Below are positions 14,470 to 20,140 of a stretch of DNA of 64,000 nt, piece by piece; the first letter of the stretch is position 1, and every line of letters begins with the position of its first letter. The stretch spans positions 1 to 64,000 of the forward strand of contig CAMAUZ010000035.1 of NCBI GenBank assembly GCA_945861535.1, written 5' to 3'. A program made the position numbers and the translations under genes. The notes below the pieces were generated by a model, which had not been told where the DNA came from, did no database searches, and was given only the letters and a program-made list of their open reading frames with translations. Source of the stretch: Akkermansia muciniphila (GTDB taxonomy: Bacteria; Verrucomicrobiota; Verrucomicrobiia; Limisphaerales; BJHT01).

Positions 14470-15458
14470 ACCGCGTTTAAGGCGCGGCACGCTACGGCAC
14501 CCCCCTCGCGATGCAAAGAGTGAAGATGGTTTCGCACGGCGCGCGGGCGAATCCGCGCCCGCCTCCTCGTACCGCAGACTTCCAAGTCTGCTGTATCGCG
14601 GGTTTCCAAACCCGCGGACGGTCCGGTCACCCGCCGCGCCTCGGCTTGCCGGACGCGCCCCGAACAACGCAGCCCCCGCCGATTGGGAAATCGGCGACAC
14701 AGCAGGTTTGGAAACCTGCGCTACCCGGCTGCGCTCCCTTGCCCGCCTCGGCTTCGTGCCGGAGGCACGACCGCGCGCACGGCCGGGGACGAGAGAAAAT
14801 AGCCAAACTCCAGACCCAGCATTGAGTATGTGTTTAGCGCCAAAGGCGCGGCTCATACCAGCCTGGGGCAACGCCCCACGGCAGATGCCAGCCAATGAAT
14901 TCAGGGCTGAAAGCCCGTTCGATTTTTCTGCTGCAGGATAATGCTTCCCCGCGAATGGACCGCGCCTTCAGCGCTCAAATGGAAAATGGCGCGCTTCCTG
15001 GGACGGTGCCCCAGGCTGGTATAAGCCCGCGCCTTTGGCGCTAAACAGACCCGGCACTGAAGTGCCGGGCGATTTTCGGTCGTCCCTGCGCGACTGCGCC
15101 GACTCGCCCCCGATCCCGTGGGGCAGGCTTCCAGCCTGCCAGTTCGGGCGGCATCCTGCCGCCCGTTCCCCGCGGCGGGCGCGGACGGATAGCTGCCGGG
15201 CGCGGAAACACGGGGCAGAGATGCCCCGTGAACTGGCAGGCAAGGATGCCTGCCCCACACCCCTCCCCTCCTCATTATTCTGCCCCCATTATTCTGCCGG
15301 CACCTTCTTCACTCCAAAAAATTTCCGCTGCGCGGAATTTGTTCCGGCCCGAGACGCAGGACATTTCACGCTCCGGCGGCGCACGGCCCGTTCGACTCCG
15401 GCTTCGTCCCTCAGCCTCCGTCTCCCGGTCCTTGCGCCGCCTCCGCTCGTCCCTCGCC
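14470..15458. repeat. ~990-base repeat array (families 2 and 5 and others)
   Basis: No gene seen. A family-2 element spans 14569-14724 (GTACCGCAGACTTCC ... GGAAACCTGCGCTAC). A family-5 element spans 14835-15043 (ends TAGCGCCAAAGGCGCG and its complement). A further inverted repeat runs about 15118-15260 (GTGGGGCAGGCTTCC ... GGATGCCTGCCCCAC). The rest is GC-rich and unassigned. Confidence 0.85.
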
Positions 15459-18400
15459 TCACTCCTTGCCCCGCTCCGCGGAAGACTTTCGGCCTCCGGC
15501 CTCCCCGGCTGGGCTGATGGAACTGGGGCAGGGGCGGAAGCCGATGCGGTTGTTCCCGCGGTCCGGGGCGTTGCCGTAGCGGATGGCGGCCCGGGCGCGC
15601 CTGCCGCTGGAGATCCAGCTACCGCCGCGGAGCACGCGGGCCCAGCCATTTTCCGGCCCCACGGGATCGATCACCGCCTTCGCTTCATACGTACGCGGAC
15701 TATCCTGGCACCACTCCCACACGTTGCCGTGCATGTCGTACAAGCCCCACGGATTCGGCTTCTTCTGCCCCACCGCGTGCGTCCTTCCCCCACTGTTCTT
15801 GTCATACCAGCCGTAATCCTTCAGCAGCGCCTCATCGTCCCCAAAACTAAACTGCGTCGTCGTCCCCGCCCGGCACGCATACTCCCACTCCGCCTCCGTC
15901 GGCAACCGATAGCCTGCCCACGCACAGAACGCCTGCGCGTCGTACCACGACACTCCCACCACCGGCTGCAGCGGATCGTTGAACTGACTGTTGTTCCACT
16001 CACGTGGTTTCTCTGCCTGCGGATTCGCCTCCAGATATTTCTGATACTCCGCATTCGTCACCGCATATTTCGCCAGCCAGAACCCTTTGGAAATCGTCAC
16101 CCAATGCACCGGCCGCTCATTGTCGAAGTCACTCTTCGCCTGCCCCATCTCAAACTCCCCCGCCGGTATCCACACAAACGCCATCCCCGTCCGCGCATCC
16201 ACAAACCCCTTCCCACGCGCCACCGCCCGCGGCTGCGCCGCACCCGTCGCCCGCTGTAAAATCTCCCGCGCCAGCGCCACCACTTCCTTGTCCTTCGTGC
16301 CCGCAAGTTCCCGGCAAACCGCCAGCAGGTCCGGCTGATTGTGCCGCGACAACAGCCGCAAAATCTCCACCCGCCGCGCCGCGTGCTTCGTCCCCCGCAA
16401 CTCCGCCACGAACGGCTCCAGCGTCACATGCTGCGCCTCCTCCAGACATTGCTCCACCAACTCCCGCTGCGCACCAAGCGCCCCCGCTTTCAACACCGCC
16501 GTGAAAAATTCCTGCGCAAACGCCTTGGACCCCAGCGCCACCGCCATGAGCGTCGCCTCGCGCCACCAGCTCCGCCCAAACGTCTCGGCCAGCTTCGCCA
16601 CCCGCCCCTCCTGCGCCGCGTGCGCGCCCGCCAGATACTCCTGAAACGTGAGATGCAGAAACCCCGTCTGTCCGTCCCCATACGGCGCGAGAATCCCGCT
16701 CTCGTCCCGCATCCGCTCGATGAACACCGTGCCATCGCGCCCCAAACCCGCGCTCGCCGCGATGTCCACCAGCGCCTTCGTGGCCTCCGCGCCCAGCGCC
16801 GCCACGGTTTCCGTCGTGCGGTTTTCCGTCCCGTGCAGCCACCACGCCACCGACCCGAGCACGCTCTCCGCCGCCTTGGGTTCAAACGGTGCAATGCCCG
16901 CCGCCTCGCGCACCGCCTGCCGCCAGTGCTCCACCAGCACCCGCACGCACCGCGCATACAAATCCGCCCGTCGCCGCGGCAGATTGTGATTCTCATGATG
17001 CACCACGCACAGAATCGTGAGCATCAATGGATTGGCCGGCAGCTCCCGCAACCGCCCGATGCGGTAGTCCGGCTGCGCCAGAATATCGAGCAACGACTTG
17101 ATTTCCGCCGCCGCTTTCTCCGCCACCTCCGCCCCCTCGCCATGCAGCCGCCGGAACACCGCGCCATACCAGTGCTCCACGAACTCCCGCACCTGCGGCT
17201 CGGTCAGCGGCTCCACCTGAAACTGACAGAACGACGGCCCCAGATTCACCTTTCCCTGGTAGCCCTGATACCGGCTCGTCACGAGATAGAAGTCCTCCGG
17301 CCGGTCCGCCAGCGCCTGCCGAATCCACCCGCACACCCGCACCCGCGCCGCCTCGTCCACCACTTCATCAAGACCATCAAACACCCACAGCACCCGTTCG
17401 CGCGCGAGCAGGTCGTCCGCGGGATTCGCCAGCTCCGCGCGCCCGGCATTCGGGGCCGCCAGCGCGTGGCGGATGAAGTCATTCAACGTCGCGTGCTCGC
17501 GCCGCAGATCGCGCAACCGCAGAAACACCGGGAGCACATCCGAGGGCAAACCCGGCACCGCCGTCGCGGCCGCATTCAGCACGCGCCAGCAAAACTGCCG
17601 CGCCCCCGTCGTCTTCCCCGCGCCCGGATCGCCGAGCAGGATCACGCCAGAGTGCTCGCGCTTCGTCGCGTACCCGAAAATCTCCGCCAGTTCGATGTTG
17701 CCATCGCCGAATGGTCCCTCGCCGAAGTCGGCCTCCGGAGCCAGCGGTCGGTAGGGCGCGGTGTCCTCACCGCGCCGCTCCGCATCGGTGCCGTCCAGTC
17801 GGTCGGCGGCGGGCTGAGGACAGCCCGCCCTACCCGCTCCCTGAGACAGCGCACCCGGCTTCCGCCGCCCGCCGGTGACATCCATCCGCGCCATCACGTT
17901 GAGCGGCACGTACGCCTGCTCGATCGGGAACTCGATGGGAATGCCCTTGCCGATGCCGACCAACTGCAGCTTCGCCGTCGCCTTCCGCAACCGCTTCAAA
18001 TACTCACCAATCGCCGCCGAATGCCGCGGCGGCGATGCCGTTCCCTTCCCGCCGGATTTGCCTTTTGCGGCCGAACCCTTCGCGCCCACCACCACCGTCA
18101 CGCTTGTCTCCGTCTCCGCCGGACGCGGCGCCAGGCCCGCGAGAAAGCCCGCGAGGTCCGCGTGTTTTTTGCCGTAAGACACCGGAAAGATGCGCTGCTC
18201 CGGCGGGTGCGCCGCGTGCAACGCCCCGACCTCCGCCTCCAAACACAACCGATAATGCCGCGCCGTATGGTGCCGGCTCACCGCGCCCAGCCACGAGAGG
18301 AACGGCTTGAAATTCGGATCGGACAAACCCTCGCCGCACCCGACAAACACCAGGCTCTTGGTCATCGCCAGCGCCCGCACCACCGCCTGCGCATGGGTGT

Positions 18401-18983
18401 CCTGCCGCACGTCCTCATACGACCGGATGCCGAGCACGACCGACGCAGGCGTCTGCCAATGCCCGTGCAGATGCAGAATGCCGTCGCTGTCCCCGCGCAA
18501 GACGCCGGCCACATCGTCCGGGTCCTGCCACGTCACCGCGCGCCGCCCGGTGACGGTGGCGAGCAGGTCATCGTAGTTCGTCGTCGCCAGCGGAACGTCG
18601 AGCGCATCCAACCGTTCGAGCACCGTGGCGTCGCTGGCTTTTAGTTGGCCGACCGTCTCCCGCAGCCAGCGCTTGAACTCGGGACCGTCGTTGCCGCCGA
18701 GCTTCTTGGAAATTTTCTCCGCCGCCGAAACCATGTCGTCGAGATCGCCCGACAAGATTTCCCCGAGCACGCGGTCCTGCCACGCGGCATCCAGCTTTCC
18801 CGGAAACAACTTGCGACACTCCTGCACGCCCAGCCTCAGCAACCCCGGCCACGACGCCGCCGGCGCGCCCTTCGGCACCTTGGCCGAACTCGTCGCCGCG
18901 ATGGTCACGCCGGTCCCGACCACGACCAGCACCTGCTTCGCCCCGATCAATTTCCGCAAATCCTCTGTCAACGTGTCCGCCAT
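15459..18983 (-). CDS. SIR2-NACHT-FGE protein, candidate NLR-like (STAND) defence protein
   Basis: A 1,174-residue three-part protein. Residues about 15-270 are SIR2-like (VLVVVGTGVTIA, LATTNYDDLL, LHLHGHWQTP, SLVFVGCGEG). A NACHT NTPase follows, with Walker A GDPGAGKTT near 448, Walker B VLWVFDGLDE near 535 and an all-alpha arm. The end (about 925-1160) is a formylglycine-generating-enzyme/SUMF fold (WIPAGEFEMG, RLPTEAEWEYACRAG, DMHGNVWEW, RVLRGGSW, GFRPC). SIR2 domains in such proteins commonly deplete NAD; NACHT oligomerises; the FGE fold may act as a sensor. Antiphage function is inferred. A palindromic repeat is inserted in frame at 17750-17834 (residues about 384-412), in the linker before NACHT. 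Confidence 0.85.
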   Translation of the reverse strand: MADTLTEDLRKLIGAKQVLVVVGTGVTIAATSSAKVPKGAPAASWPGLLRLGVQECRKLFPGKLDAAWQDRVLGEILSGDLDDMVSAAEKISKKLGGNDGPEFKRWLRETVGQLKASDATVLERLDALDVPLATTNYDDLLATVTGRRAVTWQDPDDVAGVLRGDSDGILHLHGHWQTPASVVLGIRSYEDVRQDTHAQAVVRALAMTKSLVFVGCGEGLSDPNFKPFLSWLGAVSRHHTARHYRLCLEAEVGALHAAHPPEQRIFPVSYGKKHADLAGFLAGLAPRPAETETSVTVVVGAKGSAAKGKSGGKGTASPPRHSAAIGEYLKRLRKATAKLQLVGIGKGIPIEFPIEQAYVPLNVMARMDVTGGRRKPGALSQGAGRAGCPQPAADRLDGTDAERRGEDTAPYRPLAPEADFGEGPFGDGNIELAEIFGYATKREHSGVILLGDPGAGKTTGARQFCWRVLNAAATAVPGLPSDVLPVFLRLRDLRREHATLNDFIRHALAAPNAGRAELANPADDLLARERVLWVFDGLDEVVDEAARVRVCGWIRQALADRPEDFYLVTSRYQGYQGKVNLGPSFCQFQVEPLTEPQVREFVEHWYGAVFRRLHGEGAEVAEKAAAEIKSLLDILAQPDYRIGRLRELPANPLMLTILCVVHHENHNLPRRRADLYARCVRVLVEHWRQAVREAAGIAPFEPKAAESVLGSVAWWLHGTENRTTETVAALGAEATKALVDIAASAGLGRDGTVFIERMRDESGILAPYGDGQTGFLHLTFQEYLAGAHAAQEGRVAKLAETFGRSWWREATLMAVALGSKAFAQEFFTAVLKAGALGAQRELVEQCLEEAQHVTLEPFVAELRGTKHAARRVEILRLLSRHNQPDLLAVCRELAGTKDKEVVALAREILQRATGAAQPRAVARGKGFVDARTGMAFVWIPAGEFEMGQAKSDFDNERPVHWVTISKGFWLAKYAVTNAEYQKYLEANPQAEKPREWNNSQFNDPLQPVVGVSWYDAQAFCAWAGYRLPTEAEWEYACRAGTTTQFSFGDDEALLKDYGWYDKNSGGRTHAVGQKKPNPWGLYDMHGNVWEWCQDSPRTYEAKAVIDPVGPENGWARVLRGGSWISSGRRARAAIRYGNAPDRGNNRIGFRPCPSSISPAGEAGGRKSSAERGKE
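17750..17834. repeat. Palindromic element inside the SIR2-NACHT gene
   Basis: An 85-bp segment is bounded by GGTAGGGCG and CGCCCTACC, with a second imperfect inverted pair inside (GTCCTCACCGCGCCG against CGGCGGGCTGAGGAC). It adds about 28 residues without breaking the frame, in a linker with no recognised domain. Confidence 0.75.
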
Positions 18984-19276: not shown

Positions 19277-20140
19277 TCAATCCACGTAGAGCGCCGTCTT
19301 CAAATCCCGGACCAGCACGCTCATGTAGGGGTAGCGTTTGTCCGGGTCGCGTTCGAGGCACTTGAGGACGATCTTGTCGAGGGCGAGGAGGAGTTCCGGG
19401 TTGTGCTGCCGGGTACTGGCGATGTGGAAGTTCGGATCGAGATGGCGGCGGATGACTTCTTCCTGGGTGTCGCCATTGAACGGCTTCTTGTTGGTCAGCA
19501 GTTCGTAGGCAGTGATCCCGAAGGCGAAGATGTCGGCGCGATGATCGAGCGGGAGGCGTTGGAGCTGCTCGGGGGCCATGTAGGCGGGGGTGCCCGAGTG
19601 TTTGTCCATCTTCCGGGGTTTGTCGGGGATTTCCTCGGCGAGATCGAAGTCGATGAGCCGCACGTCGCCGGCCCGGGTGATCATGATATTCTCGGGTTTG
19701 AAATCCAGGTGCATGTAGCCGTTGTCGTGCATGTGCTCCAAGGCCTGGGCGGAATCGATGAGGATGTTGCCGACGTAGGCCTCGACCACCTCGGGAAACC
19801 GGCTCGGGGCCATCTTCAAATTGTGCCCTTCGACATACTCGAGGAGGACGTAGGGCAGACTGTCGATCTTCCCGTGCTCGTAATAGCCGATGATGTAGGG
19901 GTGCTGGTGGAGTTTCTCCAGAATCTCGCAACCGCGGGCGAACAGCTTCTTGGTCTTCAGCCCGAAAATGGAGGTGTTGTAGAGGCGGCGCAGGGCGAAG
20001 TTGTTCCCCTCCTTGTCGGCGACCAGCCAGATTTCCGCCATTGCTCCCTGGCTGATTTTCTCATGCAAAAAAAAACGCCCAAAGGGAGTGCCTTGGGTCA
20101 TTTGCGTTTCGTTGCCGTTGGTCATTGCCTGAGCGAACAT
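19277..20140 (-). CDS. Serine/threonine protein kinase-like protein with altered catalytic motifs
   Basis: A 287-residue cytoplasmic protein with a whole kinase fold and no transmembrane or sensor extension. The glycine loop is GRFFLHEKISQGAMAEIW. The usual VAIK lysine position reads FALRRL (Arg). The catalytic loop is HLDFKPENIM (Asp and Asn kept). The metal motif is DFD rather than DFG. SGTPAYMAPEQL and DIFAFGITAYELLT follow normally. It may be a weak kinase or pseudokinase that binds rather than phosphorylates. The start may be 20140 or 20125 (MTNGNETQ). It is divergent from the CPBP gene. The SIR2-NACHT gene lies downstream on the same strand, separated by a repeat. Confidence 0.8.
   Translation of the reverse strand: MFAQAMTNGNETQMTQGTPFGRFFLHEKISQGAMAEIWLVADKEGNNFALRRLYNTSIFGLKTKKLFARGCEILEKLHQHPYIIGYYEHGKIDSLPYVLLEYVEGHNLKMAPSRFPEVVEAYVGNILIDSAQALEHMHDNGYMHLDFKPENIMITRAGDVRLIDFDLAEEIPDKPRKMDKHSGTPAYMAPEQLQRLPLDHRADIFAFGITAYELLTNKKPFNGDTQEEVIRRHLDPNFHIASTRQHNPELLLALDKIVLKCLERDPDKRYPYMSVLVRDLKTALYVD

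Follow-up and report, generated by a model that had tools for sequence, protein, structure and literature searches.

Among described diversity-generating retroelements (DGRs), DGR 3 and DGR 6 of Thiohalocapsa PB-PSB1 and the DGRs of clade 5D diversify targets that join a STAND or NACHT ATPase to a C-type lectin (CLec) domain, and incomplete DGR loci as well as remote or trans targets have been reported in Thiohalocapsa and related multicellular bacteria (PMC10907252). Here we describe a gene of comparable build in a Verrucomicrobiota genome, on a 64,000-nucleotide stretch of contig CAMAUZ010000035.1 (assembly GCA_945861535.1, positions 1 to 64,000; hereafter the window), in which a SIR2 domain, a NACHT ATPase and a domain of the formylglycine-generating enzyme (FGE) fold are encoded on one chain. 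Judged from its sequence, the product is likely a single-gene receptor resembling nucleotide-binding leucine-rich repeat (NLR) proteins, with a predicted NAD-depleting SIR2 action and an FGE sensor diversified by a DGR that was lost or acts in trans.

Domain architecture of the SIR2-NACHT-FGE protein

The gene is one unbroken open reading frame (ORF), running from ATG to TGA and encoding 1174 amino acids (Table 1). An earlier note on this DNA, made by a model from the letters alone, had claimed a SIR2-NACHT-FGE chain of NLR-like character. The chain is borne out by the intact ORF and by three Pfam domains, all of which exceed the curated cut-offs: SIR2_2 (aa 133-250, E 1e-16), NACHT (aa 447-606, E 3e-12) and FGE-sulfatase (aa 935-1150, E 4e-57). 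The NLR-like character is upheld by the architecture, the layout being complete from an N-terminal NADase-type effector through a STAND ATPase switch with its Walker motif to a C-terminal C-lectin/FGE sensor domain. The best sequence match of the SIR2_2 domain in the PDB was FAM118B (E 3e-12), and ThsA-type chains align weakly; residues N136, D138 and H173 of this domain are invariant across the 6 sequences aligned.

The FGE domain as a probable sensor

Both catalytic cysteines of FGE enzymes are missing, the window protein having GGSWISSGRRARAAIR at the positions where the enzyme has GGSYMCHRSYCYRYRCAAR and GGSYMCHRSYCYRYRC; intact cysteines here, together with a lack of phage phenotype, were what the earlier note had expected to find if its reading were wrong. 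The AlphaFold2 model of the domain (predicted local distance difference test, pLDDT, 80) matches FGE enzymes and also TvpA (2y3c), a known DGR variable protein (PMC5006420), the latter with a Foldseek E of 1e-17. Since the cysteines are absent and the model matches TvpA, the FGE domain is most likely a binding domain. Strong Pfam and PDB matches to FGE enzymes would suit a working formylglycine-generating or sulfoxide-synthase-type enzyme, in which case the protein would be no receptor; we regard this as extremely improbable, given a domain that has neither catalytic cysteine, is fused to NACHT and SIR2, and ends in a segment varying in the manner of a DGR variable repeat (VR).

Codon-position footprint in the variable end

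The end that had been pointed out as variable, RVLRGGSW...GFRPC, lies at aa 1116-1152, with its RVLRGGSW-GFR core inside the interval 15510-15640 given by the earlier note, and it does vary among paralogues. These comprise a full paralogue on contig C26 (about 56% identical in SIR2 and 65% in NACHT-FGE) and FGE relatives on contigs C98 and C127, both of which are genes that run into contig borders. Between the window gene (contig C35) and its closest paralogue the VR differences are nearly confined to codon positions 1-2 of NNC codons. For C35 against C98 the ratio of differences at positions 1/2 to those at position 3 was 17:2 in the VR, compared with 40:36 in the remaining FGE sequence (p=0.0035). 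The comparison of C127 with C26 gave 17:1 in the VR against 103:82 in the other FGE sequence (p=8e-4), and third positions there differ at 1 of the 28 codons of the VR, compared with 82 of 185 outside it (p=1e-5), so that the third positions of the VR are homogenised. Several VR codons are altered at positions 1 and 2 together, with the third fixed. A codon-position footprint of this sort is expected where copies are replaced from one common template under NNC-type codon randomisation.

Template repeats beside related genes

In genome G088, which belongs to another family of the order, a NACHT-FGE gene on contig C443 with a NACHT part about 63% identical to that of the window protein has a template repeat (TR) 302 nt downstream. 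The mismatches between this TR, RGGSWNNDNPANLSCLYRNNNHPDNRNDNIGFRC, and its VR, RGGSWYLVNPARLSCSYRLVSSPGLRRDGRGFRC, fall mostly at template A. The C443 gene probably begins on another contig of G088, C125, which carries a SIR2-NACHT start; this join is suggested by a repeat shared at the contig ends. No reverse transcriptase (RT) was found in the roughly 800 nt from the TR to the end of C443, a stretch too short to exclude one; G088 has DGR-type RTs at other loci, and in complete cassettes the RT starts about 90-1000 nt after the TR.

In both the window's own genome (contig C4) and a congener (contig C270), a TR lies about 308 nt past the end of another NACHT-FGE gene. Every core mismatch of the C270 pair is at template A and the VR equals the TR at all non-A core sites, and in the C4 pair all core substitutions but one are at template A, with a 3-nt indel in addition. 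Neither cassette has an RT within the 1.1-1.5 kb up to the next gene, nor was one found for them anywhere in the two genomes. The order also has complete VR-TR-RT cassettes in which VR and TR lie equally close together; their targets are NACHT-FGE, DUF4062-HD-NACHT-FGE and kinase-FGE proteins, DUF4062 being a reported TIR-like NADase family (PMC13174449). Taken together, the comparisons support a DGR that randomises template adenines as the agent that has rewritten the binding surface in this family.

Directly after the TR of the C4 and C270 loci we also observed about 200 nt of conserved sequence (GTCAGTGCCAAGARGYCACCTAACC ... AAAGTCACGGCCC), found as one copy per genome in the two congeners searched; it may represent a structured RNA needed alongside the TR.

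A hairpin downstream of the gene

In DGR cassettes of the order, the VR gene is trailed by a hairpin whose loop is short and of GNA type, together with an A/T tract; the window gene, too, has such a hairpin, GC-rich, past its stop codon (Table 1). It occurs once in the window against 0.01 copies expected by shuffling, and the segment folds as a DNA hairpin. In phage BPP-1, efficient retrohoming requires a target hairpin downstream of the VR; the phage DGR hairpins have a GRNA loop and lie at 4-34 bp (PMC3240598), whereas that of the window has a GNA loop and lies at 123 nt. Because distance and loop size differ in this way, the window hairpin could possibly be an intrinsic terminator instead.

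Search for a template and a reverse transcriptase

The window's own genome (G000) comprises 7.94 Mb in 169 contigs and is about 97% complete; it was searched together with the congener (G001), the two drafts being 95-97% complete. The earlier note had seen neither an RT nor a TR in the window, which is not contradicted, the VR patterns matching the window only at the VR. It had further proposed a search of the remaining genome for a DGR RT and a template; neither a DGR RT nor a TR for this VR came to light, although the comparative evidence points to the gene family as a DGR target. Templates were sought in G000 by patterns made of the constant bases of both VR types, allowing up to 3 mismatches, and these matched only the VRs themselves (two per type). 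Short BLAST matches to the VR exist on contigs C132, C29, C2, C33 and C80; the whole-genome patterns gave known VRs only.

For the RT, nine DGR RTs were combined into a profile that was run on 320 genomes of the order, in which the DGR-type group scores 213-360 bits (next score 166) and is present in about 33 genomes. The profile retrieved a group II RT alone in G000 and nothing in G001. The sole RT of G000, at C50:22706 and not on the window contig, was rejected as a DGR RT, having the group II motif TPQGGVISPLLANLY and 146 bits with the DGR profile as opposed to at least 213 for the DGR-type group.

Several of our results weigh against a receptor diversified by a DGR. Allowing up to 3 mismatches in the constant bases, the assembly yielded no TR for the window VR, and no DGR RT was found in G000 or G001 with two profiles. 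Adenine is only modestly enriched among the changed VR bases of C35 and C98 (15/17, p=0.03) and shows no enrichment among those of C127 and C26. For the SIR2-NACHT part, AlphaFold2 gave a low-confidence model that was too poor for use, and the neighbouring ORFs, read by eye, are of housekeeping type, with no obvious defence island. As the adenine enrichment is modest in one pair and absent in the other, the codon footprint alone is no proof of a DGR.

An explanation without any DGR would attribute the homogenised FGE ends to gene conversion, and the nonsynonymous changes to positive selection acting at a binding surface. The missing adenine bias of C127/C26 would fit it, as would a homogenised tract that reaches past the stop codon in this pair and FGE modules that look exchanged between genes. 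It accounts poorly for codons changed at both of the first two positions but not at the third, for the TR beside the related gene in G088, for the DGR-type hairpin downstream and for the adenine-specific TR-VR pairs elsewhere in the own genome, and we judge it distinctly unlikely.

With neither a TR for the window VR nor a DGR RT found in the assembly, the window copy is therefore either no longer being diversified or is diversified in trans by DNA that the assembly does not contain. The specific case of a DGR still active in trans, its RT and TR residing on a replicon or mobile element outside both draft assemblies, is one we entertain tentatively, as somewhat less probable than not being so. 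The identity of VR and TR at the non-A core sites of C270 implies recent RT activity, yet a DGR RT was found in neither congener; the relevant genes stop at contig ends in both assemblies, and trans diversification has been described in Thiohalocapsa (PMC10907252). Set against this, the window VR is without TRs as well as an RT, and recent loss could explain the RT-less cassettes equally well.

Apparent exchange of FGE modules and effectors

The C98 and C127 genes appear to encode proteins with a STAND-type ATPase (recognised by motif, without a Pfam match), pentapeptide repeats and a C-terminal FGE domain, and lack SIR2. The first codons are shared by the two genes, whose matching upstream parts are found at the end of contig C44 and at the start of C117. 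These four loci (L050, L051, L253 and L254, on C98, C127, C44 and C117 of G000) stand for two STAND-pentapeptide-FGE receptors, nearly identical at their ATPase ends and different in their FGE domains, with assembly breaks inside.

The FGE region of C98 is 86% identical in DNA to that of the window gene and the regions preceding FGE are unrelated, so FGE modules appear to be shared or exchanged between different STAND receptors. A plain duplication was rejected for C35 and C98, the likeness being limited to the FGE region and the sequence after it. In genome G262 (contig C456, L214), a calcineurin-like phosphatase-NACHT-FGE protein has a NACHT part 63% identical to that of the window protein; going by these sequences, it is an effector swap of metallophosphatase for SIR2 on the same NACHT chassis. 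The congener orthologue of the window gene (L076, contig C344 of G001) is truncated by a contig end right before FGE; among the congener matches, no FGE part of it turned up.

A wider and rather doubtful proposal would combine FGE ends hypermutated by an RT in trans, FGE modules moved between SIR2-NACHT and STAND-pentapeptide receptors, and SIR2 and metallophosphatase effectors swapped on a NACHT-FGE chassis. If true, the diversity of NLR sensors in bacteria would be of two sorts, point and combinatorial.

Proposed mode of action

In the receptor that we favour, the C-terminal FGE/C-lectin tip would bind a ligand, most likely of a phage or another invader; the NACHT ATPase would then exchange nucleotide, switch and oligomerise, and the N-terminal SIR2 domain would hydrolyse NAD and halt the infected cell. 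The receptor would thus probably act by abortive infection, an antiphage role that we infer from the architecture. The window copy would have kept its VR and the downstream hairpin after loss of the DGR, or be served in trans. Most known pairings of SIR2 effectors with STAND-like sensors come from antiphage systems, which argues against an NLR-like cell-death protein for self/non-self or developmental signalling. That alternative draws on the absence of an obvious defence island at the locus and on the enrichment of comparable STAND-FGE proteins in multicellular bacteria (PMC10907252), and we consider it unlikely.

Feature coordinates and neighbouring genes

Table 1. Positions of the SIR2-NACHT-FGE gene, its parts and related features, numbered along the window unless a contig is named.
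Feature	Position	Strand	Basis
SIR2-NACHT-FGE gene	15459..18983	-	Single open frame; Pfam SIR2_2, NACHT, FGE
SIR2_2 NADase-type effector domain (predicted), aa 16-285	18129..18938	-	Pfam; alignment with FAM118B and ThsA-type chains
N136 codon	18576-18578	-	SIR2_2 catalytic Asn
H173 codon	18465-18467	-	SIR2_2 catalytic His
In-frame intergenic repeat copy, aa 374-422, between effector and ATPase	17718..17864	-	Absent from C26 paralogue and congener orthologue
NACHT (STAND) NTPase, Walker A GDPGAGKTT	17166..17645	-	Pfam, E 3e-12
Helical, HEAT-like stretch (putative), aa 820-930, linking NACHT to FGE	16194..16526	-	Sequence inference; no Pfam match; low-confidence structure model
FGE-type C-lectin domain, aa 935-1150, without catalytic cysteines	15534..16181	-	Pfam; AlphaFold2 model
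VR core, RVLRGGSW...GFR	15534..15638	-	Codon-position pattern against paralogues; TR beside related gene in G088
GNA-loop hairpin with A/T tract, CCGCGCAGCGGAAATTTTTT	15316..15335	-	123 nt past stop of SIR2-NACHT-FGE gene
TR-VR locus of NACHT-FGE gene, L056	G000:C4:144000-156000		
TR-VR locus of NACHT-FGE gene, L100	G001:C270		

The insert between effector and ATPase, which had escaped the earlier note, is a dispersed GC-rich palindromic intergenic repeat with further copies across the genome, and it resembles the in-frame repeat insertion by Rickettsia palindromic elements. Another repeat, GTGVSPVRTETHGRDARAT, interrupts the NACHT domain of the G088 relative. Upstream of the gene lies a short stand-alone Ser/Thr protein kinase gene (19277-20140, reverse strand), a linkage that was not seen conserved; conserved neighbours or operon partners of the SIR2-NACHT-FGE gene were sought and none were found.

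Comparison with known systems

The Thiohalocapsa and clade 5D targets share with the window protein a STAND or NACHT ATPase and a C-terminal FGE/CLec domain in which the VR lies, but their N-termini are EAD, peptidase, TIR or of no assigned type, and SIR2 is unmentioned in the main text of that study (PMC10907252); the window gene differs further in that neither a TR nor an RT was found for it in the genome assembly. TvpA of Treponema denticola is an FGE-subclass C-lectin DGR variable protein like the window FGE domain, though not part of a STAND receptor. Antiviral STAND (Avs) and bacterial NACHT (bNACHT) proteins have the same tripartite effector-STAND-sensor layout, from which the FGE sensor sets the window protein apart; PADLOC returned no match to an Avs model and none to any curated defence-system model over the full length of the protein, only weak, partial SIR2 matches to ThsA, LmuA and Dsr1. 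The SIR2_2 immune NADases ThsA and human FAM118B (PMC12700824) have the fold and the catalytic Asn/His motifs in common with the window protein, whose SIR2_2 domain, a predicted NADase, instead shares its chain with NACHT and FGE. SIR2-NACHT proteins of Pseudomonas koreensis and Enterobacter mori (L106, L107) show the same SIR2_2-NACHT order at 26-29% identity, with a different C-terminus in which no FGE domain was found.

A clear, though predicted, NAD-depleting effector thereby joins the DGR-diversified STAND sensors, making a DGR role in bacterial immunity testable through NAD loss. RT-less TR-VR cassettes in two congeners, together with VR footprints that lack a TR, are targets that DGR surveys anchored on the RT would miss, and common FGE modules on differing receptors suggest sensor exchange. 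DGR-diversified STAND-FGE sensors as such were already known; relative to the papers compared, what is new is the SIR2 effector, the swap between SIR2 and metallophosphatase, the TR-VR cassettes that lack an RT and the FGE modules that appear to have been exchanged.
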